Source: a virus
Reading direction: 5' to 3' (one strand)
DNA length: 22,889 nt
Virus record (IMG/VR): IMGVR_UViG_3300030060_001216
Span: 1-22,889 of that record
Both the position numbers and the translations under genes were made by a program. The notes under the pieces were generated by a model. The model was not told the DNA's origin and did not search any database. It saw only the letters and a list, made by a program, of their open reading frames with translations. Each line of letters begins with the position of its first letter. Position 1 is the stretch's first letter. Positions 174-14,944 of this stretch are shown here, in pieces.

Positions 174-650
174 ATGAAATTAAAAGTATTAAGATTTAGT
201 TCTGAAGCAGACTCTACTTCTGGTTTGCTTTTTGAAGAAACAGATATTGGCTTACAATTCTTATGTTACACATTAGAAGATGAACGTAGAGCTTTAAAAG
301 TCAAAGGAGAAACAAGAATACCAGCAGGTATTTATAATTTAAAATTAAGAAAAGAGGGTGGTTTTCATGAAAGATATTCTAAAAAATATCGTAATATGCA
401 CATTGGTATGCTTCATGTCACTGATGTTCCTAACTTTGAGTATATTCTTATTCACACTGGAAACACTGACGAGCACTCCAGTGGATGTCTAATCGTTGGC
501 TTGTCGCAAGAATCCAATCAAGTTCTTAAAGATGGATTTGTTGGTAAAAGTGTTAACGCTTATAAAAGGATTTATCCTAAAATTGCAAAAGCCATAGATA
601 ATGGGCAAGATGTAACCATTGAATATGTTGACTTTGATAAAGAATTTTAA
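174..650 (+). CDS. DUF5675 family protein, possible cell-wall or lysis function
   Basis: The 158-residue protein has the hallmark of DUF5675: an N-terminal strand-rich region, a TRIPAGIY segment near residues 48-54, and the signature IHTGNTDEHSSGC at about 93-105. The H...S-GC arrangement resembles the catalytic motif of YkuD L,D-transpeptidases (HG...SxGC), with H94 and C105 as the natural candidates. The similarity is only in the motif and no activity has been shown here. There is no signal peptide, so any action on peptidoglycan would need release by the neighbouring holin-like protein. The gene lies between the 42-residue basic protein and that holin-like gene, which supports a lysis-module placement. 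The family call is fairly secure; the enzymatic idea is inference. Confidence 0.75.
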   Translation: MKLKVLRFSSEADSTSGLLFEETDIGLQFLCYTLEDERRALKVKGETRIPAGIYNLKLRKEGGFHERYSKKYRNMHIGMLHVTDVPNFEYILIHTGNTDEHSSGCLIVGLSQESNQVLKDGFVGKSVNAYKRIYPKIAKAIDNGQDVTIEYVDFDKEF

Positions 651-676
651 GGGTTCATAAAGGGTTAATAAACCCT
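649..676 (+). repeat. GGGT/GGGT/ACCC element, copy A
   Basis: It starts on the stop codon of the DUF5675 gene. GGGT occurs at 651-654 and 662-665, 11 bases apart, followed by ACCC at 672-675. The second GGGT and the ACCC can also form a small hairpin (GGGTT/AACCC). Two related elements lie at 4517-4544 (22 of 28 positions identical) and 9401-9429. No T-run follows, so it is not a typical terminator. It may be a protein-binding site. Confidence 0.6.
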
Positions 677-707
677 ATATAATAAAGATAAAGATAAATA
701 TAAAGAT

Positions 708-1121
708 ATGATAAATAATATATTAGGAGGAATACTTGGAAAAGTTGTAGATAATGCAGAAGGAATATTGGATAAAGTAATTACTACAGATAAAGAAAGA
801 GATGAAGCTAAACTACAATTAAGAAAAGTATTATTAGATGCTGAGAAAGAAGCTTTTGCTAAAGAGGTAGAAGATAGAAAATCAGCTAGAGATATGTATA
901 AGGATGATGCTATTATACAAAAGGTATTGGCAACATTATTTACAGTAGCTTACTTTGGTATAACATTTGTAATGTTTAGCTATTTTGTAACTAAAACAAT
1001 AGACTTAGGAGAGTTTGAGATTAGTTTTATATCTACAATATTTGGAGCTATGTCCAGTAAAGTTAATACTATTATTGATTTTTTCTTTGGTGGTAGTGCT
1101 AAAAAACAAGAAGAAAAATAA
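708..1121 (+). CDS. Holin-like membrane protein (3TM holin family)
   Basis: This 137-residue protein starts with a short Gly/Ile/Leu-rich segment (MINNILGGILGKVV), continues with a charged amphipathic helix at about 25-68, and has two membrane segments: roughly residues 72-94 (ending ITFVMFSYFV) and 104-127. It ends in a charged tail, KKQEEK. This plan matches the phage and gene-transfer-agent holin family usually called holin_3TM, in which the protein makes lesions in the inner membrane at lysis. The DUF5675 gene 57 bases upstream fits as a lysis partner. There is no Shine-Dalgarno sequence; the leader is purine/AT-rich. Family assignment is by architecture, so a different small membrane protein remains possible. 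Confidence 0.7.
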   Translation: MINNILGGILGKVVDNAEGILDKVITTDKERDEAKLQLRKVLLDAEKEAFAKEVEDRKSARDMYKDDAIIQKVLATLFTVAYFGITFVMFSYFVTKTIDLGEFEISFISTIFGAMSSKVNTIIDFFFGGSAKKQEEK

Positions 1122-1156
1122 TTCTACTTTTTTCCTATCTACTCATAATTTATTAG

Positions 1157-1165
1157 TATATTTGC
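1157..1165 (+). promoter_or_regulatory. Candidate Bacteroidota -7 box (TATATTTGC)
   Basis: TATATTTG matches the Bacteroidota -7 consensus TANNTTTG exactly, but no TTTG sits about 19 bases upstream, so the -33 half is weak. Transcription would start near 1171 and run through the hairpin at 1178-1192 into the terminator at 1213-1250, or onward to the metallophosphoesterase gene. Confidence 0.45.
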
Positions 1166-1177
1166 ACACTTACGAAA

Positions 1178-1192
1178 AACTCATTCTGAGTT
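1178..1192 (+). other. Short perfect hairpin upstream of the terminator
   Basis: AACTCA, loop TTC, TGAGTT: six perfect base pairs. It lies between the promoter-like box and the terminator, so a transcript of about 80 bases would contain two hairpins. Confidence 0.5.
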
Positions 1193-1212
1193 ATCATTGT
1201 TTTAGGGTTAGT

Positions 1213-1250
1213 AAAAAAACGAGATTTCTGTTGGTTATCTCGTTTTTTAT
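1213..1250 (+). terminator. Intrinsic terminator, likely bidirectional
   Basis: A 12-base perfect stem, AAAAAACGAGAT (1214-1225) with ATCTCGTTTTTT (1237-1248), has an 11-base loop. The A-run on the left and T-run on the right let it work on both strands. It separates the holin-like gene from the metallophosphoesterase gene. Confidence 0.85.
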
Positions 1251-1281
1251 TTTATATTGCACCAACCAATAAAACAGTTTA

Positions 1282-2043
1282 ATGAAAAAGATATATGGTA
1301 AAAGACTTAGACTTACCCCAGAAGAAGTACAAATGGTTGAAAACCATAGGCTTACAAGAAATGTAGGCATCATAGGTGACACGCATGAGCCTTTCTGTCA
1401 CCCAAAATACAGAGATTTTTGTTACGAAGTATTTAACAGATTTGGAGTTTCCGAGATAGTACATATCGGTGATGAGGTAGATAATTCAGCCTTGTCATAT
1501 CATGAGAAAATGGCTGAAATGCCTAATGCAGAAACAGAAGCAGAAAAAGCACAAGCAGCTATGGAAAAGTGGTATGCTACCTTTAGTAACGTAAAGGTAT
1601 GTGTAGGCAATCATTCGGCTTTACCTTTTCGTCAGGCTACTACGGCAGGTATTCCTAAAAGATTTATGAAGTCTTATGAAGAAATATGGAACGCACCAAA
1701 AGGCTGGCAGTGGAAGTTACAATGGGAAATAGACAATGTTTTATACGAACATGGTACAGGTAGTAGTGGAGCAAGAGCAGCAGTTAATAGAGCAACAGCA
1801 AACAGACAATCTACTGTTATAGGGCACTGTCACAGCTTTGGTGGTGTAAACTACATGGCATCTCGTAATGATTTAATATTTGGTCTTAACGTAGGTTGTG
1901 GCATATCTGTATCAGCACTAGCTTTTCATTATGGTAAAAACTTTCCCAAGAAGCCTACACTTGGCTGTGGTGTTGTTTTAGACGAAGGAAAAACAGGACT
2001 TTTTATCCCAATGGACTTAGGAAGTAAGATAGTTCATATCTAA
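1282..2043 (+). CDS. Calcineurin-like metallophosphoesterase
   Basis: The 253-residue protein carries the ordered metal-binding motifs of the metallophosphoesterase superfamily: GDTH (D33, H35), GDEVDN (D64), GNH (N110, H111), an isolated His in YEHG (H157) and GHCH (H182, H184). All expected dinuclear-metal ligands are present, so it should be an active phosphatase, phosphodiesterase or nuclease. The substrate cannot be told from sequence; phage relatives include protein phosphatases and nucleases. It is the first gene after the terminator at 1213-1250 and is followed by its own 83-base gap with a strong promoter, so it may form a single-gene transcription unit. There is no signal peptide, so it is cytoplasmic. 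Confidence 0.9.
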   Translation: MKKIYGKRLRLTPEEVQMVENHRLTRNVGIIGDTHEPFCHPKYRDFCYEVFNRFGVSEIVHIGDEVDNSALSYHEKMAEMPNAETEAEKAQAAMEKWYATFSNVKVCVGNHSALPFRQATTAGIPKRFMKSYEEIWNAPKGWQWKLQWEIDNVLYEHGTGSSGARAAVNRATANRQSTVIGHCHSFGGVNYMASRNDLIFGLNVGCGISVSALAFHYGKNFPKKPTLGCGVVLDEGKTGLFIPMDLGSKIVHI

Positions 2044-2068
2044 ATTTTTTAAAAAAGATACAAAAAAG

Positions 2069-2099
2069 TTTGTCAATATAATTTTTTATTATACATTTG
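2069..2099 (+). promoter_or_regulatory. Strong Bacteroidota-type promoter for the replication operon
   Basis: TTTG at 2069-2072, a 19-base spacer, then TACATTTG at 2092-2099: an essentially perfect match to the -33/-7 consensus of Bacteroidota primary sigma factors. Start of transcription would be near 2105, about 22 bases before the ATG at 2127. It probably drives the overlapping genes from 2127 to 6426. Confidence 0.85.
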
Positions 2100-2126
2100 C
2101 AGTAATAACCCACTAAATAATGTATT

Positions 2127-2369
2127 ATGTTAAAAGAATTATTAAAGAAAAATTACAAATTAAATAGTAATGAAACTCATGTTTACTTATCTAATGTTAA
2201 TAAAGTATTAGATGAAGTAAGAGATAATATTAAAGCATTACAGCTAGAAGCTCATAATAGTGAAAACTATGAAGCATCTGAAGCTTACAAAAATGCTTGG
2301 TATGAATTAGCTTTTGTAGGAAATAGAATATTAGATATTCAAATACAAAACTTAATAGATAAAAAATAA
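2127..2369 (+). CDS. 80-residue hypothetical early protein
   Basis: This is the first gene after the strong promoter. It begins MLKELLKKNYKLNSNETHVY and appears almost entirely helical and charged, with no Cys, no membrane segment and no motif I recognise. A helical bundle or a small partner or inhibitor protein would fit, but that is only a guess from composition. The start is the first ATG in the frame, after the leader TAATAACCCACTAAATAATG. A similar TAACCC-containing leader precedes the next gene. Genes immediately behind an early phage promoter are often host-takeover proteins; nothing in the sequence proves this one is. Confidence 0.75.
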   Translation: MLKELLKKNYKLNSNETHVYLSNVNKVLDEVRDNIKALQLEAHNSENYEASEAYKNAWYELAFVGNRILDIQIQNLIDKK

Positions 2370-2388
2370 TAACCCTAAAAATTATATT

Positions 2389-2781
2389 ATGTCAGAAATT
2401 AAAAAAGAAACAAGAAAAGAAGCATTAAGAAGGTTGTTTGAAACAAATGGCTTAGTGCAAGAAGATGTTTACAAAGACAAGAGAGGATTTGTAATTATTA
2501 CTAGAACAGGTATAGATAAGATAGTAAGTAACAGAGGTATTGATTTATCTTACGAACCTATAGTCATGGAAAAGGATTGGGTAGTATTACGTTGTATTGC
2601 TAAGATGTCCGAAACCAAAGTAGAAAGTTTTGGTGAGTGCTCACAAGAAAACACTATGGGTCTAGCTGGTAAATATCCAGTAGCTATGGCAGAAAAGCGT
2701 GCAAAGTCACGAGCAGTATTAATGATGACAGGATTTTACGAACAAGGAATCTATGGTCAGGATGAAATGATGGATAGTTAA
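2389..2781 (+). CDS. Probable single-strand annealing protein (Rad52/ERF-like)
   Basis: The 130-residue protein has a run of predicted strands (FVIITRTG; residues 56-80) followed by a helix with the pattern KYPVAMAEKRAKSRAVLMMTG. This beta-beta-beta-alpha layout, with an alternating Ala/Arg helix after a short Gly-containing turn, resembles the core of Rad52-superfamily annealing proteins such as ERF and Sak. In phages these pair complementary single strands during recombination and repair. Neighbours support this: an SSB-like OB-fold protein, a replication initiator and a VRR-NUC nuclease follow in the same operon. The protein is shorter than ERF, so it would be a minimal version. The call rests on pattern resemblance by eye; a different DNA-binding protein is possible. 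Confidence 0.5.
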   Translation: MSEIKKETRKEALRRLFETNGLVQEDVYKDKRGFVIITRTGIDKIVSNRGIDLSYEPIVMEKDWVVLRCIAKMSETKVESFGECSQENTMGLAGKYPVAMAEKRAKSRAVLMMTGFYEQGIYGQDEMMDS

Positions 2782-3005
2782 TGGATTGGATAGATGATTT
2801 ATTAGATGACAGATGTAACTTGTATCAGATTTCTACAATAGAAAATTTGATGAAAACATCATCTGTATCTAATGAATATATTAATATTGACTTTGAACAG
2901 CTTACAATTATAGAAGCAGAGCAAATAATATTACATCTGTACGATAATAATAATCCAACAGACCCAAAAGAACAATTTAAAAAAATGTTTAAAGATGGCA
3001 GTTAA
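2781..3005 (+). CDS. 74-residue acidic hypothetical protein
   Basis: The ATG overlaps the stop of the annealing-protein gene (TAATG), showing translational coupling. The product starts MDWIDDLLDDRCN, is acidic and helical, and ends FKKMFKDGS. I recognise no family. Its position beside a Rad52-like gene suggests an accessory role in recombination or replication, but there is no motif to test. It overlaps the next gene by 11 bases. Confidence 0.7.
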   Translation: MDWIDDLLDDRCNLYQISTIENLMKTSSVSNEYINIDFEQLTIIEAEQIILHLYDNNNPTDPKEQFKKMFKDGS

Positions 3006-3195
3006 AAAACACGCAATGACAAAAGAGGGTGCTATACTTTGTATAACTAGAAACCAAGTTAAACAACTTGATGGGAAACACTTAACAGGTATCAGACAAT
3101 CTTTTATAGATGCCTATAAACACTTAGATAACAGCAAGATAAAGGAGCTGTATAAAAAAACCTTTGATGTTGAATTAGTTATAATAGAAAAATGA
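2995..3195 (+). CDS. 66-residue hypothetical protein
   Basis: A small basic protein (MAVKKHAMTKEGAILCITRN at the start) overlaps both neighbours (11 bases upstream, 4 bases downstream, ATGA). The overlaps make it likely to be translated as part of the operon. I see no recognisable motif. The alternation of strand-like (AILCITRNQV, VELVIIEK) and helical segments suggests a small folded alpha/beta protein. Confidence 0.7.
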   Translation: MAVKKHAMTKEGAILCITRNQVKQLDGKHLTGIRQSFIDAYKHLDNSKIKELYKKTFDVELVIIEK

Positions 3196-3401
3196 AAAAA
3201 GCAAGAAGTAAATTTGAAGTATATATAAGAACACAAGGTATTTCTAAAAGAAAGTTTGGTCAAATTACTGGCAATAAAGGTTCTACAATAGAAAAATACT
3301 TAGCAAACCCTTCATTACTTAGAGTTAAACATTTAAAATGTTTAGTTGCAAGTGATGAATGTGATAAATCAATGATAGAAATAATTAAATTAATTAAATA
3401 A
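3192..3401 (+). CDS. Small helix-turn-helix protein, Cro/XRE-like
   Basis: The 69-residue protein is basic and consists of about five short helices. The segment ISKRKFGQITGNKGSTIEKY at about 17-36 reads as a helix-turn-helix: first helix with SKRKFGQ, turn, and recognition helix GSTIEKYL. It is the size of a minimal phage Cro-type repressor. Its position inside the replication operon suggests a regulator of early transcription, possibly acting on the promoter at 2069 or on the GGGT elements; that link is inference. It overlaps the previous gene by four bases and ends one base before the next start. Confidence 0.6.
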   Translation: MKKARSKFEVYIRTQGISKRKFGQITGNKGSTIEKYLANPSLLRVKHLKCLVASDECDKSMIEIIKLIK

Positions 3402-3402
3402 A

Positions 3403-3702
3403 ATGGAAATAAAAGGAACACTAGAAGCAAAATATGACACTAAAGAATTTAAAAGTGGCTTTAGAAAAAGAGAGTTTGTAATTAATACAGGTGGTGATTA
3501 TCCACAAACAGTTAAATTAGAAGCTCATAAAGACAATATATCTAAGATAGACAGTGTTAGTGTAGGTCAGGATATTATATGTCAAATAAACATAACAGGA
3601 AGGCTTTATGAAGGCAACTATTACAATAATATAGTAGCTTGGAAAATAGACACAACTACACAAACCGAAACTAAAAACAATGAATCAGATTTACCCTTTT
3701 AA
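3403..3702 (+). CDS. DUF3127 OB-fold protein, probable phage single-strand DNA-binding protein
   Basis: The 99-residue protein matches the DUF3127 pattern common in Bacteroidota and their phages: MEIKGTLEAK at the start, RKREFVINTGGDYPQTVKLE in the middle (residues 21-40), VGQDIICQINITGRLY, and YNNIVAWKI. These are the five strands of an OB fold. After a disordered linker it ends in ESDLPF, equivalent to the acidic-Pro-Phe tip (DDIPF) through which SSB recruits repair and replication proteins. It therefore most likely coats single-stranded phage DNA. Neighbouring replication and recombination genes agree. Stronger than a generic hypothetical call, though binding has not been shown here. Confidence 0.8.
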   Translation: MEIKGTLEAKYDTKEFKSGFRKREFVINTGGDYPQTVKLEAHKDNISKIDSVSVGQDIICQINITGRLYEGNYYNNIVAWKIDTTTQTETKNNESDLPF

Positions 3703-3704
3703 TT

Positions 3705-4181
3705 ATGAAACAATATAACAAAGAAAAGAAGTTTGTAGGACAAAAAGAAATCAGTAGATTAAAAACTATTGTTTGTGCACAGCTTGGATTAAACAATACT
3801 GCAATAAATAGTAAAGTAAAAAATGCTGATAATGTAAATGCTAGACTTATATTTAGCAACATACTAATGTTTGAATTAGAGATACCTATAGGTAAGATGT
3901 CAGATTTTGTCAATAAGGATAGAAGTAATTTTTACCACTACATTAAATTACATAATCAAGCATTAGAAATGCCAAAGTTTTACCAAGAGTATTTAAGAGA
4001 TTATGAAATTTGCAAGGATGAGTTTATAAATAAAACACATACAAAAGTTAAGAAGTGGCAAATTATGATTGAAAAATTATCATATAATTATAGAAAGCTA
4101 GATGATAAGCTAAATAATATTCAAAGACAGATAAATAATTTTGTAGAAGAAGAACAATTAAATAATCAAGACAATGGCTAA
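3705..4181 (+). CDS. DnaA domain IV-like DNA-binding protein with coiled-coil tail
   Basis: In this 158-residue protein, residues about 18-85 form a helical domain with the segment NKDRSNFYHYIKLHN. This resembles the recognition element of DnaA domain IV (DHSTV-H followed by a basic helix), and ARLIFSNILMFELEIPIGKM corresponds to the preceding helices. No AAA+ ATPase domain is present, so only the DNA-binding half is represented. Residues about 100-158 are strongly charged and likely coiled coil. It is immediately followed, with an 8-base overlap, by the replication initiator gene. A role in recognising DnaA-box-like sequence in the phage origin is plausible. The resemblance is by eye; another HTH family is the main alternative. 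Confidence 0.5.
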   Translation: MKQYNKEKKFVGQKEISRLKTIVCAQLGLNNTAINSKVKNADNVNARLIFSNILMFELEIPIGKMSDFVNKDRSNFYHYIKLHNQALEMPKFYQEYLRDYEICKDEFINKTHTKVKKWQIMIEKLSYNYRKLDDKLNNIQRQINNFVEEEQLNNQDNG

Positions 4182-4821
4182 AAGAATGACTGACACAGAT
4201 AAATGGAAGAAAAGATTTGTAAGAGAATTATCTTCAGAGTTTAAACTTTTATGGTTATACATTTTAGATGATTGTAACCACGCAGGTATATGGGAGGTAG
4301 ATTTAGAAGTAGCTTCTATTAGAATAGGTGAAACATTAAAGTTTGATATACCTGCTGAAGATATGTTACCACAATCTTTTTTAGACAAAATTGTAATATT
4401 TGACAATGGTGATAAATGGTTTATTCCTGAGTTTATTGACTTTCAATATGGCGAGTTAAATCCAAACTCTAATGTTCATAAGTCAGTTATATTATTATTA
4501 CAGAAGTATAATCTTGAAGGGTACATGAAGGGTACACAAACCCCTCCTGAACCCATCATTGATAAACCTGCAAAAAGATTTAAAAAACCTACAGTAGAAG
4601 ATGTTTCTTTGTATTGTCAAAGTAGAAATAACTTTGTAGATGCAGAAAAGTTTTTTGATTTTTATTCTTCTAATGGTTGGAAGGTAGGTAAAAATGCTAT
4701 GAAAGATTGGAAGGCTGCTGTCAGAACTTGGGAGAAGAACTCAACAACAGAGCAAACTAAAAGTAAAGTAGAACAATCTCTTGATACTTGGCAAGAGGCA
4801 AGACGTATGATAAATGGATAA
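4174..4821 (+). CDS. Phage replication initiation protein (replisome organiser/O-like)
   Basis: This 215-residue protein has two domains. Residues 1-112 look like a winged-helix domain (KLLWLYILDDCNHAGIWEVD; later WFIPEFIDFQYG). Residues 138-188 hold a conserved C-terminal motif, PTVEDVSLYCQ...FVDAEKFFDFY...GWKVGKNAMKDWKAAVRTW, widespread in replication proteins of Bacteroidota phages and mobile elements. The linker (about 113-137, Pro-rich) is encoded by DNA containing two tandem 11-base repeats, GAAGGGTACAT and GAAGGGTACAC. This is the same geometry as the origin inside lambda gene O. It probably binds the origin and helps load the helicase. It overlaps both neighbours. Confidence 0.75.
   Translation: MAKRMTDTDKWKKRFVRELSSEFKLLWLYILDDCNHAGIWEVDLEVASIRIGETLKFDIPAEDMLPQSFLDKIVIFDNGDKWFIPEFIDFQYGELNPNSNVHKSVILLLQKYNLEGYMKGTQTPPEPIIDKPAKRFKKPTVEDVSLYCQSRNNFVDAEKFFDFYSSNGWKVGKNAMKDWKAAVRTWEKNSTTEQTKSKVEQSLDTWQEARRMING
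4517..4544 (+). repeat. GGGT/GGGT/ACCC element, copy C, inside the initiator gene (candidate origin)
   Basis: GGGT at 4519-4522 and 4530-4533, 11 bases apart, is followed by ACCC at 4540-4543. It matches copy A (649-676) at 22 of 28 positions even though it is constrained by coding. It falls in the inter-domain linker codons of the replication initiator, where lambdoid phages keep their iterons. Confidence 0.6.
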
Positions 4822-5209
4822 AAGTAATCAAGTATGGTATAGGTTTAAAAATAACCTTGAACAGTTTAATATTGATTGTGTTGACCTTTTAAGCAAGTGC
4901 TATATGATGTTAGGTCAAAGACCAGACACATCACAGATAGTAATGATGTCTAAATTTTTAATAGAAGATTTATCTAGGAATCATGGCTCTATGACTTTGG
5001 AGGAGGTATCTTTTGCTTTTGAGCAAGGTATTAAGCACTCAGAGCATGGGGGCTTCATTAATGTAAGAACTATGAGTCAATTTATTAAGGAGTATAAAAA
5101 AAATGCACAAGCTAAAAGACAGCAACAATTATTAACAGATTATGAAAAAGAACAACAAAACCTTAAATTTATAGGTCAAAGTATAAACAAAGCAAAAAGA
5201 TTAAAATGA
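4814..5209 (+). CDS. 131-residue protein, possible replication accessory or helicase loader
   Basis: It overlaps the initiator gene by eight bases, the position where many phages have a helicase loader. The sequence is helical and has a compact domain at about 35-95 with segments MTLEEVSFAFEQGIKH and GGFINVRTMSQFIKEYKKNA, followed by a charged Gln/Lys-rich tail. No ATPase motif is present, so it is not a DnaC-type AAA+ loader; non-ATPase loaders (lambda P-like) remain possible. I do not recognise a named family. A poly-G run of five (5048-5052) lies in the gene. The function stated is inference from position. Confidence 0.6.
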   Translation: MDKSNQVWYRFKNNLEQFNIDCVDLLSKCYMMLGQRPDTSQIVMMSKFLIEDLSRNHGSMTLEEVSFAFEQGIKHSEHGGFINVRTMSQFIKEYKKNAQAKRQQQLLTDYEKEQQNLKFIGQSINKAKRLK

Positions 5210-5352
5210 ATTTATTTATATTAACATTGTCAATACTATCTTTACTATATGTTACCATTTGGTTAGTTTATTCTGATAGAGTATATAAAAAAAAGAGAAA
5301 GGAATTTGAAGATAGATTAAAAAAATTTGACAATAAAAATACTGAAAATTGA
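5206..5352 (+). CDS. 48-residue single-pass membrane protein
   Basis: The ATG at 5206 overlaps the previous stop (ATGA), and the TGA at 5350-5352 overlaps the TTG start of the nuclease gene. The product starts MNLFILTLSILSLLYVTIWL: one hydrophobic membrane segment at about residues 2-22, then a strongly charged tail rich in Lys, Arg, Asp and Glu. The topology would be N-out/C-in by the positive-inside rule. Phages often encode such peptides for superinfection exclusion, host membrane interference or lysis control; nothing here distinguishes these. The exact overlaps on both sides make it a convincing gene despite its size. Confidence 0.7.
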   Translation: MNLFILTLSILSLLYVTIWLVYSDRVYKKKRKEFEDRLKKFDNKNTEN

Positions 5353-5708
5353 AAGAATTAAGTGAAGAAAAAATACAAATAGCTATTGTAAATTATTTAA
5401 AGTTGCAATATCCTAAGCTGTTATTTACTGCAACAATGGGTGGTCAATATCAAAAACATCACTCACAAAGAAGAAGGGCAAAGCAAACAGGCTATTTAAG
5501 GGGGGTAAGTGACTTACTTATATTTGAGCCAAGAGGTATATACTCTGGATTATTTATAGAATTAAAAAGAAACAAAAAATGCTACCCAACTAAAGAACAA
5601 AAAGAATTTATATTAAAAGCAAAAAGCAAGGGGTACTACGCTGTATGTGCCAAAGGTTTTGATGAATGTAAAGAAACTATAGATAATTATTTAAATGATA
5701 AATTATGA
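5349..5708 (+). CDS. VRR-NUC domain nuclease
   Basis: The protein (119 residues from a TTG start) shows the VRR-NUC/PD-(D/E)XK pattern: EEKIQIAIVNYL at the N-terminus, RGVSDLLIF (D55), GLFIELK (E71, K73) and a conserved Gln in KEQKEF (Q84). Such stand-alone domains in phages cut branched DNA or act in replication and recombination; metal ions would be held by D55 and E71. The TTG start is preferred because it overlaps the upstream TGA by four bases, mirroring other junctions here, and the next in-frame start would remove the conserved N-terminal helix. A run of six G (5500-5505) lies in the conserved RGVSD segment. Confidence 0.85.
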   Translation: MKELSEEKIQIAIVNYLKLQYPKLLFTATMGGQYQKHHSQRRRAKQTGYLRGVSDLLIFEPRGIYSGLFIELKRNKKCYPTKEQKEFILKAKSKGYYAVCAKGFDECKETIDNYLNDKL

Positions 5709-6016
5709 CTGAACATAGTAAATATTATTACGATTATAAAAGAAACACTACTGACAAGGGGGGAGAGGTCTGTGAAAATGCTAACAAAGATAATCTTAAC
5801 ATTCCAGATTATTATATAGGAAAGAATGGTTATATGGCAAAAGATGTTGTAGCAAATTTTGATTTATCTTACAATGTTGGGACTGCCACCACATATCTCA
5901 TTCGTTGTGGCAAGAAACGAGAAGAAGGAATGTCTGATGTTGATAAACACATAGAAGATATTGAGAAAGCAATAAACCATTTAAGATTTGAAATAGAAAA
6001 ACTAAAACAAAAATAA
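5705..6016 (+). CDS. DUF3310 family protein (SaV-like)
   Basis: In this 103-residue protein, residues about 43-100 match DUF3310: MAKDVVANFDLSYNVGTATT, then YLIRCGKK, then an acidic gap and a helix KHIEDIEKAINHLRFEIEKL. The N-terminal 35 residues are polar and likely flexible. DUF3310 proteins are frequent in phages and are sometimes labelled nucleotide kinases by homology to T7 gp1.7, but no nucleotide-binding motif is obvious here. A run of six G (5758-5763) encodes the KGG segment in the flexible N-terminus. It overlaps the nuclease gene by four bases. Confidence 0.75.
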   Translation: MTEHSKYYYDYKRNTTDKGGEVCENANKDNLNIPDYYIGKNGYMAKDVVANFDLSYNVGTATTYLIRCGKKREEGMSDVDKHIEDIEKAINHLRFEIEKLKQK

Positions 6017-6228
6017 TGAAACCAGAAATTACAGACAAACACATTAAAGTTCAAGCTTTACAACACTTGTTAATACATTACGAGAATAAGTATAAGAAAT
6101 ATAAAGGGGGGGGTAGAGAGGATGTATTAGAGATTATAGAACTATACATATCAAAGATTAGAAGAACTATAATTAGTGTTTTAGAAGAAGAAAATAAAAA
6201 AATAAATAAACCAATAGAATTTTATTAA
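6016..6228 (+). CDS. 70-residue hypothetical protein with a poly-G tract
   Basis: The ATG overlaps the previous stop by one base (TAATG). The product is helical and highly charged, MKPEITDKHIKVQALQHLLI at the start, likely a two-helix hairpin broken at residues about 30-33 by KGGGRED. That break is encoded by eight consecutive G (6106-6113), very unusual in this AT-rich genome; slippage by one base would truncate the protein. I recognise no family. Confidence 0.65.
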   Translation: MKPEITDKHIKVQALQHLLIHYENKYKKYKGGGREDVLEIIELYISKIRRTIISVLEEENKKINKPIEFY

Positions 6229-6426
6229 ATGAGCATAAATCCATTTGAAAGAAAAGATAGCAGAGGAGGGGGGTACGCTAAGAGAAAGTTTACCTTACAA
6301 GAGGCTATAGAAATTAGAGAAGAATATAATCAGGGGGGGGTGTCCCAGAATCAACTTGCTAGAAAGTATAATGTTTCTCAGCCTATTATTAATATGTTGT
6401 TGAGAAAGAAAACTTATACAAAATAA
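6229..6426 (+). CDS. Small helix-turn-helix protein, resolvase-type HTH
   Basis: The 65-residue protein contains residues 21-62, FTLQEAIEIREEYN then GVSQNQLARKYNVSQPIINM. This is the classic pattern of an HTH_23/resolvase-like domain: a regulated helix, then Q-LA-KY-VSQ-IIN as turn and recognition helix. It is likely a DNA-binding regulator of phage transcription. It starts immediately after the previous stop. Two poly-G runs (6268-6273 and 6333-6340) fall inside it, both at glycine turns (RGGGY and QGGV). It is the last gene of the replication operon and lies just before a new promoter at 6428. Confidence 0.75.
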   Translation: MSINPFERKDSRGGGYAKRKFTLQEAIEIREEYNQGGVSQNQLARKYNVSQPIINMLLRKKTYTK

Positions 6427-6427
6427 T

Positions 6428-6458
6428 TTTGTACTTTATAAAATAATTTGTATGTTTG
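6428..6458 (+). promoter_or_regulatory. Strong Bacteroidota-type promoter for the gene at 6549
   Basis: TTTG at 6428-6431, a 19-base spacer, and TATGTTTG at 6451-6458: the same spacing and boxes as the promoter at 2069-2099. The leader to the ATG at 6549 is about 85 bases and contains a G7 run and a TAACCC motif. Confidence 0.8.
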
Positions 6459-6548
6459 TGGTGTGTATGGGTAGTGATAGAGGGGCAAGGTAGGGGGGGT
6501 GCTCTTACACAACTTTAAAAAAAGTAACCCTAAAATAAAAAAATAATT

Positions 6549-6878
6549 ATGAGAGCAGGTTCAGACATAGGATATTGTGACAGCGATTACAGAAACAAAA
6601 ATACAGTTCCAAACTTACCAAGTGAAGAAGATGTAACAAATCATTTAGAGTCTATGGGCTTTGAAGTAAATGATATAAGAGTAGGAGATAAAGACTTAGA
6701 CATACATATTACTTACAATGGATTGTCTTATGACTTTGTAGATTTTGATTGGGATTGTTATGAATCATTTGATAAAGATAATTATTTAAAAGAATATGAT
6801 GAGGTTTACAGTATGTGCTGTGGAGTTCCAATAGATACAGATATAAGACGTTGTAACAGTTGTCAAGAGGCTTTATAA
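6549..6878 (+). CDS. 109-residue acidic protein with a C-terminal zinc-ribbon-like motif
   Basis: The protein is strongly acidic. Residues 1-75 contain strand-like segments rich in Asp (VGDKDLDIHITYNG; DFVDFDWDCY). The C-terminus, MCCGVPIDTDIRRCNSCQEA, holds two Cys pairs (CC and CxxC) separated by about ten residues, which looks like a minimal zinc ribbon. I do not recognise the family. It is a single-gene unit with its own strong promoter and a good terminator directly behind it, which implies tightly timed expression. A role as a small protein-protein or nucleic-acid adaptor is possible but not demonstrated. Confidence 0.75.
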   Translation: MRAGSDIGYCDSDYRNKNTVPNLPSEEDVTNHLESMGFEVNDIRVGDKDLDIHITYNGLSYDFVDFDWDCYESFDKDNYLKEYDEVYSMCCGVPIDTDIRRCNSCQEAL

Positions 6879-6903
6879 ATTTGTGTATTCATTTGTTTGA
6901 AAA

Positions 6904-6936
6904 GTGGGAGTGGTTGAAACTGCTCCCCTTTTTTTT
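6904..6936 (+). terminator. Intrinsic terminator
   Basis: Stem GGGAG (6906-6910) with CTCCC (6923-6927), with additional GTT/AAC pairs inside, is followed by eight T (6929-6936). It closes the single-gene unit of 6549-6878. Confidence 0.8.
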
Positions 6937-6993
6937 ACTGAAATTGCCAGCAAAATCCCAGCGAAACTGCTGTGAAACTGCTGGGTCTGCTGT
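6916..6993 (+). repeat. Iteron-like repeats GAAACTGCT with an embedded hairpin
   Basis: GAAACTGCT occurs at 6916-6924, 6963-6971 and 6974-6982; a variant, GAAATTGCC, is at 6940-6948, and a TCTGCTG remnant follows at 6986-6992. The two adjacent copies form a perfect 11-base tandem step. CCCAGC (6957-6962) pairs with GCTGGG (6980-6985) around them. This is the most GC-rich patch in the neighbourhood and is followed by a very AT-rich stretch. The first copy overlaps the terminator stem. Confidence 0.6.
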
Positions 6994-7205
6994 ATAAAAT
7001 ATAGTATGCACTTATAGTTATTAACAATTCTTTTGTTCATAACTTTTTTATCTTTTTTATTTTGTTTTTAATTATTTTTTGTTATTCGCCTGTACTTATA
7101 TAACAAAAGGAGTATATAAATTTTTTTATTTTTTTTAAATTTATTTGTATTGTATTAAAATATTTTTATTATATTTGTCTCAATTATTAATTTAAACTAT
7201 AACAA
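6994..7205. other. Very AT-rich non-coding stretch, candidate DNA-unwinding element
   Basis: There is no gene between the iteron-like repeats and the first small gene at 7206. The stretch is dominated by T-runs on the + strand (for example around 7046-7080 and 7120-7140). It ends in a promoter-like sequence at 7170-7177. Confidence 0.45.
7144..7177 (+). promoter_or_regulatory. Candidate promoter for the small-gene operon
   Basis: A perfect -7 box, TATATTTG, is at 7170-7177. The upstream TTTG at 7144-7147 is 22 bases away and a TTG at 7150-7152 is 17 bases away, so the -33 half is imperfect. The leader to the ATG at 7206 is about 25 bases. Confidence 0.55.
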
Positions 7206-7382
7206 ATGACAAAGGAAGAAAAATTAAAAATACATTATTTATGTGATGCAAGCAAATATGCTTTAATTTTAGATTTAAAAGAAAAAAACAAAAAGTTAAA
7301 AGAAGAATTAAATCACTATATAATAAAAGAAATAAAGGAAGCAGAAGAATGGCTAAAAGAAAAACAAAATAAAAATAAATAA
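7206..7382 (+). CDS. 58-residue charged helical protein
   Basis: An ATG at 7206 follows the leader ATAACA, and the frame ends with TAA at 7380-7382. The product begins MTKEEKLKIHYLCDASKYAL and then becomes an almost uninterrupted Lys/Glu-rich helix to the end (KEAEEWLKEKQNKNK), most likely a coiled coil. It is the first gene after the promoter-like box at 7170. I recognise no family. The coding call rests on its position in a dense run of similar small genes and on a reasonable leader. Confidence 0.6.
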   Translation: MTKEEKLKIHYLCDASKYALILDLKEKNKKLKEELNHYIIKEIKEAEEWLKEKQNKNK

Positions 7383-7386
7383 AATT

Positions 7387-7518
7387 ATGACATATTTAGA
7401 AAAACTAGAAAAAGAAAGAAAGAAAGAAAGAAACAAAAATTTATTTTGTTGCTTTATCTTTTTACTGGTGGTTACGTTATCACCTTTTATAGAATCAATT
7501 TTTAATTTAAATATATAA
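7387..7518 (+). CDS. 43-residue single-pass membrane protein
   Basis: An ATG at 7387 follows the previous stop by four bases. The N-terminal half is a Lys/Glu/Arg-rich segment encoded partly by tandem GAAA repeats (7411-7432). The C-terminal half is a hydrophobic span, NLFCCFIFLLVVTLSPF, at about residues 18-34. This gives a basic N-in anchor with a single membrane helix. The GAAA tandem repeat could expand or contract, but only multiples of three units keep the frame. The function is unknown. Confidence 0.55.
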   Translation: MTYLEKLEKERKKERNKNLFCCFIFLLVVTLSPFIESIFNLNI

Positions 7519-7556
7519 ACAAATGAAAACAACCGAAATAATTATTTTTTAACACT

Positions 7557-7688
7557 ATGATAAAAGAAAATAACAATTCACACAATTTAAAAAGACTTTT
7601 AAAACTTAATAAAATAACATTTCAAAATTATTTATTTAGATTAAAAGCAAATCAATTAAATATTAACACCTATAAATTAAAACAATGA
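7557..7688 (+). CDS. 43-residue small basic protein, possible HTH
   Basis: An ATG at 7557 and TGA at 7686-7688, which overlaps the next ATG (ATGA). The sequence MIKENNNSHNLKRLLKLNKI followed by TFQNYLFRLKANQLNINTY is basic and helical, and could be the first two or three helices of a Cro-like helix-turn-helix, although it is shorter than a typical domain. No other motif is visible. The four-base overlap with the downstream gene supports translation. Confidence 0.5.
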   Translation: MIKENNNSHNLKRLLKLNKITFQNYLFRLKANQLNINTYKLKQ

Positions 7689-7891
7689 AAACAAAATTAA
7701 CACCTTATTTAGCTGTGGGCATTGCAGAAGGATTTGAAGAAGCAGAAACCGAAAAACAATTTTTAGAAGCGTGGCAGTATATATATGACAATGAATTATA
7801 CTTAGGTTTGCAGGGTAGGTTTGGGCGTACATTAGAAAGTTTAATCGAACAAGGATATATTAATACAAACAATAAAACAAAAAACAAATGA
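7685..7891 (+). CDS. 68-residue phage protein, DUF7417-like
   Basis: The product has an N-terminal helix (LAVGIAEGFEEAETEKQFLE) and the motif LYLGLQGRFGRTLESLIEQG at about residues 38-57. A W-x(n)-L-x-LQG-x-FGR-x(n)-LI-x-G arrangement is common in small phage proteins, from memory those grouped as DUF7417. No function is known for the family. It overlaps the upstream gene and the downstream gene by four bases each, so it is translationally coupled. Confidence 0.7.
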   Translation: MKTKLTPYLAVGIAEGFEEAETEKQFLEAWQYIYDNELYLGLQGRFGRTLESLIEQGYINTNNKTKNK

Positions 7892-8301
7892 AAACAACAA
7901 AACACATTAAAAAACTAGCGTTTGCAATGGCTAAAGAAGACATTAAAAAATCTAATTTTTGGACAGACAAAGACATTGACAAACTAACAGAATGGAACGC
8001 CGAAACACTTACAAAAATTAAAAATTCTTTATTAAATGGTAGATTTTACGCAGGTGTTAAAAGTGTTTCAAGTTCTGGAATGAGCAGAAAAATAATACTT
8101 GCTTACATACATAAAAATAAACTTTACAAAATAACAGACAAACAAATATTGTCTTTGGCTGGTTGTGATAAAAATGGTAGAATTTCAGGTTGTGGAATGG
8201 ATATGTTATTCCACGCACAATATACACTCTTTCATAATTTACACAAAACGTATAAACAAGCACATTATCAAAAAAGAATGAGACAATATAATAATTTATA
8301 A
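7888..8301 (+). CDS. 137-residue conserved phage protein with SSSGMSR and GCGMDM motifs
   Basis: The N-terminal third is a Lys-rich helical segment. The conserved core runs from FYAGVKSVSSSGMSRKI (about residues 53-69) through ITDKQILSLAGC to ISGCGMDMLFHAQYTLFHNL (about 99-118). Proteins with the paired SSSGMSR and GCGMDM motifs are familiar from many phages and from small defence or counter-defence loci, but I know of no assigned function. The conserved Ser, Arg, Cys, Asp and His residues could form an active or binding site; that is inference. It is the largest protein of the small-gene operon. Confidence 0.7.
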   Translation: MKTTKHIKKLAFAMAKEDIKKSNFWTDKDIDKLTEWNAETLTKIKNSLLNGRFYAGVKSVSSSGMSRKIILAYIHKNKLYKITDKQILSLAGCDKNGRISGCGMDMLFHAQYTLFHNLHKTYKQAHYQKRMRQYNNL

Positions 8302-8333
8302 TATTAACAATTAAATAAATAAAACAATGAAAG
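8294..8333 (+). repeat. Gene-boundary direct repeat, copy 1 (40 bases)
   Basis: It covers the stop region of the gene ending at 8301, the A-rich leader and the ATG at 8327. It is identical over 40 bases to 8610-8649 and shares 27 bases with 8792-8818. Confidence 0.9.
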
Positions 8334-8617
8334 TAAAAATAATGCAAAGGAGTGTATATCATAAATACGCAGAAATAGAAATTGAAATTCCTAATGACTG
8401 GAATAATAAAAATGGTGTTGAGAATTATTATGATGAACACATAAATGATTATTTACACGACAACGAACATCTATACGTAAATAAAATTGATGAAGCTATA
8501 AACAAAGCAGACTTTGAATATGGCTCTGGCGTAGATGATTATCGTGGTATGAATGAGCCAGAATCAGACTCTGAATGGAGGTTTGAATTAAATAACGGAT
8601 ACGGAGGACATTTATAA
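8327..8617 (+). CDS. 96-residue acidic hypothetical protein flanked by direct repeats
   Basis: The protein begins MKVKIMQRSVYHKYAEIEIE, has strand-like N-terminal segments, then an Asp/Asn/Glu-rich middle (NYYDEHINDYLHDNEH) and a C-terminal GYGGHL. It is strongly acidic, a common property of phage proteins that mimic DNA, but nothing specific proves mimicry. It is bracketed by identical 40-base repeats that include its own start and the next gene's start, so it looks like an exchangeable cassette. I recognise no family. Confidence 0.7.
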   Translation: MKVKIMQRSVYHKYAEIEIEIPNDWNNKNGVENYYDEHINDYLHDNEHLYVNKIDEAINKADFEYGSGVDDYRGMNEPESDSEWRFELNNGYGGHL

Positions 8618-8649
8618 TATTAACAATTAAATAAATAAAACAATGAAAG
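8610..8649 (+). repeat. Gene-boundary direct repeat, copy 2 (40 bases)
   Basis: Identical to 8294-8333, again spanning stop codon, leader and start codon, so the 96-residue gene between them could be lost or gained by recombination. Confidence 0.9.
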
Positions 8650-8804
8650 AAAAAACAATAAAAGAAAAAACAATAAATGAATTATTTGATATTCTTTACG
8701 ATTTAGAAATATATTTAGAATTTGATGAAACAGAACAAGGAAAAAAACTCGGAGAATTTATAAATAAATTACAAAAAGAACTAATAAATAAAACAATTAA
8801 ATAA
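8643..8804 (+). CDS. 53-residue acidic helical protein
   Basis: An ATG at 8643 lies within boundary repeat copy 2, and TAA is at 8802-8804, inside copy 3. The product starts with a short duplicated motif, MKEKTIKEKTI, then INELFDILYDLEIYLEFDET and a C-terminal charged helix. It is probably a two-helix protein. The function is unknown. Its start sits in exactly the same leader sequence as the genes on either side, which supports translation. Confidence 0.6.
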   Translation: MKEKTIKEKTINELFDILYDLEIYLEFDETEQGKKLGEFINKLQKELINKTIK

Positions 8805-8818
8805 ATAAAACAATGAAA
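8792..8818 (+). repeat. Gene-boundary direct repeat, copy 3 (27 bases)
   Basis: Shares 27 bases with copies 1 and 2, from AACAATT through the ATG at 8813. Part of it encodes the C-terminal TIK of the preceding gene. Confidence 0.85.
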
Positions 8819-8968
8819 CAAAATTTAATTAATCAAATAGGTTTTTTATTAATGATTAACACAGAAACAAAAGAAGATATAAAAGAATATAAAACACTTT
8901 TATATAATTGTAACAACTATACAATAAAACAATTAAAAGAATTAATAAATATTATGAATAAAAGTTAA
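8813..8968 (+). CDS. 51-residue hypothetical protein
   Basis: An ATG at 8813 lies in boundary repeat copy 3, and TAA is at 8966-8968. The sequence MKQNLINQIGFLLMINTETK then EDIKEYKTLLYNC and a C-terminal helix suggests a compact helical protein. No motif is recognised. Its N-terminal pattern is loosely like its neighbours, as expected from shared start regions, but no convincing protein-level homology between them is visible. Confidence 0.55.
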   Translation: MKQNLINQIGFLLMINTETKEDIKEYKTLLYNCNNYTIKQLKELINIMNKS

Positions 8969-8973
8969 TAACT

Positions 8974-9054
8974 ATGAACAATAAACAATTACCTATTAGT
9001 AACTTCTGGTTATTAATTGCTTTAATTTTATCCTTATTAGGTTGCTTTAATTAG
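8974..9054 (+). CDS. 26-residue membrane micropeptide overlapping the terminator
   Basis: An ATG at 8974 and TAG at 9052-9054 encode MNNKQLPISNFWLLIALILS followed by LLGCFN. One hydrophobic segment covers residues 11-24. The end LLGC resembles a lipoprotein lipobox, but those codons also form the left arm of the terminator, so the likeness may be forced by the RNA structure. If translated, it would be a tiny inner-membrane peptide. The evidence is weak: position after the 51-residue gene, a plausible start, and hydrophobicity. Confidence 0.4.
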   Translation: MNNKQLPISNFWLLIALILSLLGCFN

Positions 9055-9068
9055 CAACCTTTTTTTTT
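9039..9068 (+). terminator. Strong intrinsic terminator of the small-gene operon
   Basis: A perfect 8-base stem, AGGTTGCT (9039-9046) with AGCAACCT (9053-9060), has a 6-base loop and is followed by nine T (9060-9068). It overlaps the last codons of the micropeptide. Confidence 0.9.
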
Positions 9069-9400
9069 ATTATAATGTCTTACTATTGATTTATTTTGTT
9101 GTTGCTTTAAATGGTGTTTAAAATGTGTTAGAATGATTGCATTTTTTAAGTTAATATGCAAATATTCACAAATTAAACGCACTTTTTATTTATTTTGTTG
9201 CAAATTGTTTTTTTTTGATTCCGTCAAATATTAGTGGCCCCGTAGTTAAGCATATCCACACAACCACACCAATTTTAAATCCAATTTTATAGGCTAATTA
9301 TTTAATTATTAAGTTTAGATAAAAACTTATTATAAGAAGGCTTCGAAGTTAGTGTTTTATTTTTTAATTTTTAAGCAACTTTTGTGTAGAAAATAGCACT

Positions 9401-9429
9401 AAGGGTTTGTAAAGGGTATATAGTACCCT
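9401..9429 (+). repeat. GGGT/GGGT/ACCC element, copy B
   Basis: GGGT at 9403-9406 and 9414-9417, 11 bases apart, then ACCC at 9425-9428. AGGGTA (9413-9418) and TACCCT (9424-9429) form a 6-base hairpin. The sequence after it (CCCTATA, then A-rich purines) also resembles that following copy A. Confidence 0.6.
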
Positions 9430-9502
9430 ATAAGATATATATAAAGCTAAAGAAAAAGATAAGGTTATAGTTAATTATATAAAATTGCTAAGTTTTTTTT
9501 GT

Positions 9503-9510
9503 TACTTTTG
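9503..9510 (+). promoter_or_regulatory. Candidate -7 box for the packaging/structural operon
   Basis: TACTTTTG matches TANNTTTG; a possible TTG at 9485-9487 is only 15 bases upstream, so the -33 half is poor. The leader to the terminase small-subunit ATG is about 30 bases. A weak host-type -33 box would suit a late promoter that needs an activator. Confidence 0.5.
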
Positions 9511-11708: not shown

Positions 11709-12410
11709 ATGCTTAGTTTAGGACTTAAAATCGGTATAGGTAGCACTAGAGTTCAAAGTGGATTTGCAATAACTGATGTATCTGGATTACAACTATGGTT
11801 AAAATTTAATGAAGGACAGGTAACTACAGAAGATGGTTTAAAATGGAGTGATGGCAGTGGTAATGGTAATCACGCTACTCAAACAACTGATAGTCATGAA
11901 GGTGCTTTTTCTTCTGGTTTTTATAGAACTGATGCAAATGCTAATGACCACTTAGAATTTACCTCACAAATTGATTTGACAGGTGCTTATCATGTATTTA
12001 TGGTTATTGACCTATCAGAACAGACTAATGAAACATTTTTAAGTAGTACCAATAGTAGCACATCATTTATGCGATTAGGACAAGGAAGTAGTACAACATT
12101 TAGAATTAGACAAAACACTTCATCAAATCAGGCAGACATAAGTATGTCAGAAGCTTTTGGTACAGATAAAGCAATATTTGAAGTTACAAGAGATGGCTCA
12201 AATGATATTAGTGCACTAAAAAATGGTTCACAAGTAGGTACAGCTAGTAGTCAGACAGGAACTTTTGAAGCAAATCAAATATCTGCACACTCTGCTGGTT
12301 TAAGTAGTGCACAGATAGCAGAAGTTGTAATTTTTAATACAATATTAGATAGTGCAACTGCAACAAAGGTTAGAAATGATGTAGCAGATAGAAATAGTTT
12401 AAGCATTTAA
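11709..12410 (+). CDS. LamG/concanavalin A-like lectin domain protein 1
   Basis: The 233-residue protein is almost entirely one jelly-roll domain. GLQLWLKFNEG at about residues 26-36 is the first strand, WSDGSGNGNHATQTT (46-60) the conserved D-S-G-x-GN-H motif, then YHVFMVIDLS, ISALKNGSQVG and a closing IAEVVIFNTILDSATATKVR. This fits the ConA-like/LamG_3 superfamily, which binds glycans. A matching domain lies in the proteins at 13694 and, more divergently, at 20144. On a virion it would contact polysaccharide at the host surface. There is no signal peptide, consistent with a virion part. Lectin activity is inferred from the fold. Confidence 0.8.
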   Translation: MLSLGLKIGIGSTRVQSGFAITDVSGLQLWLKFNEGQVTTEDGLKWSDGSGNGNHATQTTDSHEGAFSSGFYRTDANANDHLEFTSQIDLTGAYHVFMVIDLSEQTNETFLSSTNSSTSFMRLGQGSSTTFRIRQNTSSNQADISMSEAFGTDKAIFEVTRDGSNDISALKNGSQVGTASSQTGTFEANQISAHSAGLSSAQIAEVVIFNTILDSATATKVRNDVADRNSLSI

Positions 12411-12411
12411 T

Positions 12412-12837
12412 ATGGACAGAATAAAAGGTATAAACAGTAAACACAGAATTTTAGTTAGAGAACATCTAAAGTTTTTGCAATCAAGATTGTATGATTTAAC
12501 AGAATATGATAAAACTAATGGTAAATTTTTAGATTTTGTTGATGTTTTAGACACAATAGTTAAATATTCTAATGATTTTAAAGATTATACAAATAAAAAC
12601 AGAGGTAAAGACGAGTGGATGTATATGATACCTACATTATCTCTTTATGCTTCTTTAGGATTTATGGTAGGTATAAAAAATGAAGAAATACAGAAAAGAA
12701 TAGACATGAGTGATATGCAAGAAGAAATTATTGCAGAAACACTAGAGCTGGTAGCAGAACTAGCAGATGTGCTTACAGATTATAGAGAAAAAAAAGGTAT
12801 TGAAAAAGAATTAAATAAAATAAAACAAGGATGTTAA
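12412..12837 (+). CDS. 141-residue helical protein in the tail gene cluster
   Basis: The predicted product is all-helical, MDRIKGINSKHRILVREHLK at the start, with a membrane-unlike hydrophobic stretch (IPTLSLYASLGFMVGI) at about residues 72-87 and a long acidic helix toward the end (EEIIAETLELVAELADVLTD). I recognise no family. It overlaps the next gene, the probable tail assembly chaperone, by seven bases and so is likely co-translated with it. It may be a tail or neck component or a chaperone partner; this is based on position only. Confidence 0.65.
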   Translation: MDRIKGINSKHRILVREHLKFLQSRLYDLTEYDKTNGKFLDFVDVLDTIVKYSNDFKDYTNKNRGKDEWMYMIPTLSLYASLGFMVGIKNEEIQKRIDMSDMQEEIIAETLELVAELADVLTDYREKKGIEKELNKIKQGC

Positions 12838-13693: not shown

Positions 13694-14944
13694 ATGGCAT
13701 TTAATAGATTAAGAGATATAAGAGATAGAATGGAGTCTAAATGGACAAGTGGTCAGTTTATATTTGGTTATGAAGATGATGTAAACGAAAACCATAATAT
13801 AGATTATCCTTTACTTTTAGTTATACCACCAACATCTACTTTACCTGCAACTGAAAAAGACCCAATAAATGCTCATATTAAAGAAGAATATGAGTTTGAA
13901 GTAATATTTGCAAAACCATATAGAACAAGTAGTAGTAACACTGGTGCAAATGATACAAACACTAATTTAGATGTAATATATACATTATTAGAAGCTGAAG
14001 CACAATATTGGCTACAAAGTTTCTTAGATAGCTACCCAAAAAAAGAAGTTACACTTGTACCTTCACCAATAACTGTAGAAAGAGAAACAAATCAACATAA
14101 TGATAAAGTAGTACAAATAAGAATGAATTTTACTGTAGATTGTTTTTCTCATGCTTTTGCATCATTTGATGACCAGTTTATTAGAAATTTAGCACCTACT
14201 ATATGGTTAAGAAGTGATATAGGAGTAAAAACACAATATTTTGGTGGTAAAGAAGTTGTAACAAAATGGACAGACCAAAGTGGTAAAGGTAACCATTTTA
14301 CACAAACAACATCATCACAACAGCCAGAATACAAGTATGAAATGGCTGACACTACAAATACAAACAACAGATACCCTTTTTTAAGCTTTGATGGTACAGA
14401 CGATTTTTTAAGTTGTGAACAAGCATCACTAGGAGAAACTGTTGGCTTGTCAGCAAATCATACAATATTTTATATAGCTAAAACCAATGCTTTAGCAGAA
14501 AATGGTGGTGCAGTTTTTGGGGTAAACCAAGAAAGCACAACACTACAAAGAATGAAGATTCATGTAACAGAAACAGCTACAAATAATAATAAATGGACAT
14601 ATATTGCCAATGAAGCAAGCTCATCTGGAACTGACACAGCTACTTTAACAGAAAGTGAAACTGCTAACGCAGCACTAATAAAATGTAGAGCAGTAAGATT
14701 AAATGGTACACAACTAACTTATTTCTTAAATGGAGAGAATCATTTAGAATCAACTTTTGCAAGTTATGCACCACCAACTAATTATACATCAGCAAATGCT
14801 GCTGTTATGGGGGTAGATAATGCTGGTACACCACTTTATTTAAATGGCTCAGTACAAGAACTAATGGTTTTTACATCAGCTTTATCAAATGCTCAAATAA
14901 TAGACGTAATGAATTACCTTAACCATAAATATAACATATACTAA
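13694..14944 (+). CDS. Tail-completion-like protein fused to a LamG/ConA-like domain
   Basis: The 416-residue protein has two parts. Residues 1-160 form a compact domain with FNRLRDIRDRMESKW, YPLLLVIPP, EYEFEVIFAKPY and VVQIRMNFTVDCF. This layout recalls tail terminator or tail completion proteins that cap the tail tube. Residues 167-416 form a ConA-like lectin domain starting APTIWLRSDIG, with KWTDQSGKGNHFTQTT matching the domain at 11709 (SGNGNHATQTT), then YPFLSFDGTDDFL and a closing VQELMVFTSALSNAQIIDV. The fusion is unusual because it places a glycan-binding fold on a short, low-copy tail part. The lectin half is secure; the N-terminal role is tentative. Confidence 0.75.
   Translation: MAFNRLRDIRDRMESKWTSGQFIFGYEDDVNENHNIDYPLLLVIPPTSTLPATEKDPINAHIKEEYEFEVIFAKPYRTSSSNTGANDTNTNLDVIYTLLEAEAQYWLQSFLDSYPKKEVTLVPSPITVERETNQHNDKVVQIRMNFTVDCFSHAFASFDDQFIRNLAPTIWLRSDIGVKTQYFGGKEVVTKWTDQSGKGNHFTQTTSSQQPEYKYEMADTTNTNNRYPFLSFDGTDDFLSCEQASLGETVGLSANHTIFYIAKTNALAENGGAVFGVNQESTTLQRMKIHVTETATNNNKWTYIANEASSSGTDTATLTESETANAALIKCRAVRLNGTQLTYFLNGENHLESTFASYAPPTNYTSANAAVMGVDNAGTPLYLNGSVQELMVFTSALSNAQIIDVMNYLNHKYNIY

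Follow-up and report, generated by a model that had tools for sequence, protein, structure and literature searches.

Phage origins that are embedded in an initiator gene, as well as phage origins that are duplicated, are already known from lambda and SPP1. Lambda gene O, as read from its sequence, contains four iterons, each 18 bp long and 20–24 bp apart, followed by an A/G-rich stretch on the coding strand; to our knowledge, these iterons occur only in O. In SPP1, oriL lies within gene 38 and oriR in an intergenic late region; each combines direct repeats with an AT-rich unwinding element and is bound by gp38, and gp38 bound to oriR has been proposed to stall forks and thereby trigger the switch to concatemers (PMC6316719, PMC3485210). 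In Staphylococcus phage 80alpha, ORF20 is described as a G38P homologue, and the origin is thought to be embedded there, beside the helicase-loader gene (PMC5499656). At Bacillus subtilis oriC, DnaA-trios and the DnaD recognition element (DRE), which are strand-specific short repeats beside double-strand boxes, guide helicase loading (PMC10201434).

The element analyzed here shares features with each of these systems. By its layout, with one copy in the initiator gene and intergenic copies A and C of the same design, it resembles SPP1 oriL/oriR, differing in having three copies rather than two, half-sites spaced by 11 bp of which one is inverted, and a hexamer tract of defined sequence. Copy B alone, which lies in the initiator gene, resembles lambda ori, where iterons in the gene are likewise followed by A/G-rich sequence, but the 11-bp-spaced half-sites contrast with the four longer and more widely spaced lambda iterons. 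The layout is also similar to that of 80alpha, where the putative origin lies inside the initiator gene and beside a helicase-loader gene; repeated intergenic copies are not mentioned in the description of that origin (PMC5499656). The hexamer tract recalls DnaA-trios and the DRE by analogy only. The trios are three-base and the repeats here six-base; TnnT motifs like those of the DRE are found in the complement of AAAGAT (PMC10201434). Given the SPP1 repeats in the initiator gene and in an intergenic late set (PMC6316719), the original prediction that no described element has this arrangement was too strong. Searches of the open-access literature for elements of this type, DUF4373-type initiators and origins of Flavobacteria phages gave titles and abstracts that contained no description of it.

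Three copies of the element in the window

The window covers bases 1–22,889 of a marine phage record that is 29,680 bases long. A three-part element, consisting of two GGGT half-sites 11 bases apart followed by an inverted ACCC, had been predicted at three places, and searching with the pattern GGGT-N7-GGGT-N6/7-ACCC confirmed it at 651–675, 4519–4543 and 9403–9428, all on the plus strand. The strict pattern gave four hits at these three places, with the extra hit at 4530–4554 on the minus strand arising from a fourth, inverted half-site in copy B. No match occurred in 100 dinucleotide shuffles or in 400 order-4 Markov sequences, and the remaining part of the 29,680-base record holds no additional copy. 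Of 37 GGGT words in the window, only those of the three copies form 11-bp pairs, and GGGT–GGGT spacings of 40 or less are limited to 11 (three times), 28 and 33. The predicted identity of 22 out of 28 positions applies to the copies at 649 and 4517, and the other pairs are lower (20 for 649/9401 and 19 for 4517/9401). The copies and adjoining elements are, with F denoting GGGT and r the inverted half-site:

649–676, plus strand: copy A; GGGT at 651–654 and 662–665, inverted ACCC at 672–675
684–707, plus strand: hexamer tract of copy A; AAAGAT, AAAGAT, AAATAT, AAAGAT
4517–4554, plus strand: copy B, in the initiator gene; GGGT at 4519 and 4530, inverted ACCC at 4540 and 4551 (F-F-r-r), the fourth half-site being 4551–4554
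9401–9429, plus strand: copy C, upstream of the terS promoter; GGGT at 9403 and 9414, inverted ACCC at 9425–9428
9443–9472, plus strand: hexamer tract of copy C; AAAGCT, AAAGAA, AAAGAT, AAGGTT, ATAGTT
9503–9510, plus strand: -7 box TACTTTTG, read from the sequence; part of the terS promoter that follows copy C

Copy A is intergenic, beginning right behind the stop codon of the DUF5675 gene, and its hexamer tract abuts the ATG of the holin-like gene, with no recognizable promoter. Copy B is in coding sequence, and copy C lies upstream of a promoter whose TACTTTTG we take to be a -7 box of the Bacteroidota type; the relatives show a similar arrangement of copy C and terS promoter. The occurrence of copies in three different settings favors a function of the DNA itself.

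The half-site word is AAGGGTW, repeated at 11-bp spacing and accompanied by an inverted one. In most copies of the relatives, the half-site block is followed by purine-rich hexamers of the form A[AT][AG]G[N]T, i.e. (AWRGNT)n. Runs of at least four hexamers occur 65 times in 477 kb of core sequence (the core set is defined below), with 0 expected, and all 65 lie beside half-sites. The element is thus larger than the GGGT/GGGT/ACCC core, and the hexamer tract belongs to it; the original three-part description captured the core pattern and did not include the tracts of copies A and C or the fourth half-site of copy B. The tract, a candidate unwinding region, stands next to the repeats in the majority of relatives. 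In the window it accompanies copies A and C, where it departs in places from the consensus. Copy B of the window has none, though the initiator-gene copies of most relatives do. The order of half-sites varies among copies, including r-F-F, F-F-F-F and r-r-F-r.

Conservation in core relatives and distant phages

From 80 loci encoding relatives of the initiator, a core set of 49 initiator genes was defined, comprising 48 relatives and the window. The element is conserved in initiator genes of related phages: all 49 core genes carry a linker copy at the same codon position, arranged as F-F-r or F-F-F-r with GGGT spaced by exactly 11 bases. Copy A is found between the DUF5675 and holin-like genes in 20/20 core loci covering that junction. 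Wherever terS was recognized in a core locus (9/9), copy C precedes it; L086–L088, which had been retrieved by the pattern itself, were left out of the counts. Altered forms of copy C are present in L018 and L020. Copy C keeps its position next to two different types of terS. Among the nine core records longer than 30 kb (G001–G008 and G016), the strict pattern is present at exactly three places in seven and at two places in G002 and G004, and a reversed control pattern had no match in the nine.

The first Gly codon of the linker element is GGG in 49/49 genes, while in the rest of these genes 5 of 321 Gly codons are GGG, and the mean codon entropy is 0.12 bits inside the element versus 0.79. 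Considering that the 11-base period is out of frame, the element is not a peptide repeat. Codon choice thus indicates that the constraint on the linker copy acts on the DNA.

Outside the core set, the element is found largely in initiator genes. In 1.6 Mb of non-core loci the signature occurs 67 times in initiators and eight times outside them, with six of the eight in a sister clade. The initiator linkers of this clade (L053–L055, L057–L067 and L075, all but L056) have no repeats, and in seven of its loci (L057, L059, L061, L062, L064, L065 and L066) the element is found elsewhere, mostly behind a phosphoesterase gene that precedes the initiator by a few kb. In L055 and L075, where the sequence extends to the phosphoesterase region, there is no clear copy. 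No other origin candidate was found in L128, L129, L145, L161, L162, L166 and further loci with repeat-free linkers. In L148, the initiator linker has no repeats, and closely packed ACCC/GGGT half-sites with hexamers behind them lie at about 4130–4260 on the minus strand; this array is a candidate for a relocated origin.

A short palindrome (CCTATTTTATAGG / TCTATTTTATAGA) was seen immediately upstream of copy C in L008 (about 12530–12585), L034 and L048, with changes matched between its two arms.

The initiator and the domain that the repeats follow

The initiator is part of a replication module with the following genes:

3403–3702, plus strand: single-strand DNA-binding protein (DUF3127; phrog_4932, E = 1e-22)
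3705–4181, plus strand: DnaA domain-IV-like protein (weak Bac_DnaA_C match, E = 0.041)
4174–4821, plus strand: replication initiator, with an N-terminal winged-helix-like domain (residues 1–112), a disordered linker and a C-terminal helical domain (about 141–191)
4814–5209, plus strand: conserved gene downstream of the initiator, a possible helicase loader judging from its position

The AlphaFold model of the initiator has a pLDDT of 91 for the N-domain and values below 50 for linker residues 126–132. The modeled N-domain follows the order helix-strand-helix-helix-strand-strand, which is compatible with a winged helix. The C-terminus matches phrog_15768 (E = 5e-27) and, weakly, a DnaD-like helicase loader (E = 0.003); in annotated phages, genes with a homologous C-domain directly precede those of a DnaB-like helicase or DnaC-like loader. 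A homologue of the 4814–5209 gene follows the initiator in 44/45 core loci, and profile searches gave no convincing family match for its product. As predicted, copy B falls in the linker between the two initiator domains, comparable to the position of the lambda origin in gene O, with no detectable homology between the window initiator and lambda O (BLASTP, E = 1.9). The initiator has no Pfam match above cutoff, and no model in Pfam, NCBIfam or PHROGs covers its N-domain. The relatives searched likewise gave no significant match over this domain, except that L098 matches phrog_25711, a family of unknown function (E = 1e-5). A sequence-profile search of the PDB with the initiator yielded chance matches only, and Foldseek searches with the full protein and the N-domain gave no significant PDB match, with winged-helix proteins among the weak ones.

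A consensus DnaA box, TTATCCACA, is located at 3498 within the single-strand DNA-binding protein gene, near the gene of the DnaA-like protein, and the close relative L007 has a DnaA box at a similar distance from its initiator.

Relatives sharing only the N-domain often have unrelated C-termini and nevertheless the same linker layout, in which 11-bp iterons and an inverted half-site are followed by hexamers encoding KDKD or KEKE. In a set of 67 de-duplicated genes with this N-domain, compared with synonymous codon shuffling, a direct pair at spacing 11 was present in 26 genes versus 2.2 after shuffling (maximum 6), and the number of half-sites was 145 versus 60. Behind the last half-site, lag-6 identity in the 67 genes reached 0.60, compared with 0.28 in the coding sequence of the N-terminal part. 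Where the same C-domain is joined to Lin1244_N, HTH_36 or other N-domains, phage initiators carry unrelated repeats, and several of these lead into six-base tracts that encode NG, GQ or KD. The layout is kept across C-terminal swaps and gives way to other repeats with other N-domains, indicating that the repeats are linked to the N-terminal domain. Half-site variants occur in eight genes only, and there is no amino-acid position that clearly varies with them. Some initiator genes use another word, GGCT or GGGGC, and repeat it within the gene. Contigs with the layout were binned to Bacteroidota, Melainabacteria, Elusimicrobia, Omnitrophica, Planctomycetota and further groups, a host assignment that is tentative because most of these are MAG contigs.

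Two initiators with other N-termini, L091 and L095 (MT835521.1 and MT835513.1), have six-base linker tracts encoding NGNGNG and GQGQGQ, and the tract may therefore be general for the initiator C-terminal domain.

Proposed origin function and alternative readings

Taken together, the repeats and their distribution make it likely that the element serves as a replication origin module of the iteron type, read by the initiator N-domain. We infer that the winged-helix-like N-domain would bind the AAGGGTW half-sites, for which 11 bp corresponds to one helical turn, that the purine-rich (AWRGNT)n tract would serve as the region of unwinding and strand exposure, and that the C-domain would direct helicase loading at the hexamers. 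The module would reside in the linker of its own initiator, like the origins within lambda O and SPP1 gene 38, and copies A and C would be further initiator-binding sites of the same layout. These two would act either as extra origins or, in the manner proposed for SPP1 oriR, by stalling forks and so initiating the change to concatemer synthesis. Several observations were counted against the iteron-origin reading, namely that copy B has no hexamer tract, that Foldseek finds no significant match for the N-domain and that 22/67 genes have fewer than two recognizable half-sites of one type in the linker, with no alternative site found in most of those checked. The GC skew, by which origin mapping had been suggested, was also counted against it: the skew is never negative across the window and shows no sign change, so that it is uninformative and does not point to an origin.

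A binding site for a phage protein, as originally proposed, could also be an operator, through which the initiator or another phage protein would regulate the lysis, replication and packaging operons without the copies being origins. We regard this as unlikely. In the relatives seen, a promoter-like sequence for terS follows closely behind copy C, which may thus serve in the suggested autoregulation or in promoter control, and copy A stands before the holin-like gene. Regulation of this kind leaves the other two copies unexplained. Copy A has no recognizable promoter nearby, copy B is within coding sequence, and a conserved hexamer tract would not be expected of an operator. In distant phages the signature is almost restricted to the linker of the initiator, with 67 occurrences in the gene against 8 elsewhere. 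As to the protein, the initiator is the likely reader, while the DnaA-like protein, also suggested, is not supported, because it was undetected in 37/45 element-bearing core relatives, nor was it detected upstream of any distant initiator. Its gene is a neighbor and its product has a weak match to DnaA domain IV, but the DnaA-box-like TTATCCACA is not near the element. Its non-detection in most core relatives led us to reject it as a general reader, and we consider such a role extremely improbable.

An element acting in the transcript would have to be a GGGTW...WACCC hairpin with effects on translation, stability or termination. Stems of 5 bp are possible for F-r pairs, and between copies GGGTT/AACCC alternates with GGGTA/TACCC. 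However, owing to the varying half-site order, some copies have no hairpin or a degenerate one, and copy C, being upstream of the promoter, should be absent from terS mRNA started there. The direct 11-bp repeats would have no account, and the window contains no Rfam match. Given the variable order and the lack of an Rfam match, the RNA hairpin was rejected; we find it very hard to credit. Similarly slight is the chance of a packaging (pac/cos), partition or recombination site, even though copy C adjoins terS and repeated copies could be points of module exchange. Each genome has three copies, one of which is within a coding gene, the element is conserved next to terS genes of two types, and in distant phages it is tied to the initiator gene. 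The partition and packaging roles raised in the original prediction likewise find no support, with no partition gene noticed among the ORFs of the window.

If the element is an origin module, the iteron word together with the 11-bp geometry and hexamer tract would locate origins in uncultivated phages having this N-domain. The reader domain to which it points is hardly represented in the family libraries searched, and a genome with three origin-like copies is a natural setting in which to test replication-mode switching in phages. A broader interpretation, which we offer tentatively and with more doubt than confidence, is that the N-domain represents a widespread, uncatalogued origin-binding domain, whose GGGT-type iterons at 11 bp would be combined with a six-base single-strand code (AWRGNT and relatives) setting the helicase-loading strand, as a phage counterpart of DnaA-trios and the DRE, and that one clade would have spread this origin to three fixed sites, at which the phage fires or stalls forks.

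Further features of the window were noted. The DUF5675 protein (174–650) has a weak, below-cutoff match to a Tlde1 domain (E = 4.5e-4) and may be a peptidoglycan-active lysis protein. In the structural region, the genes at 11709–12410, 13694–14944 and 20144–21088 seem, by eye, to have a LamG/concanavalin-type domain in common. Runs of 6–8 G occur at 5500, 5758, 6106, 6268, 6333 and 6493, i.e. six in 1 kb at about 30% GC, with no C runs, and similar G runs are present in the relatives, mostly downstream of the initiator.
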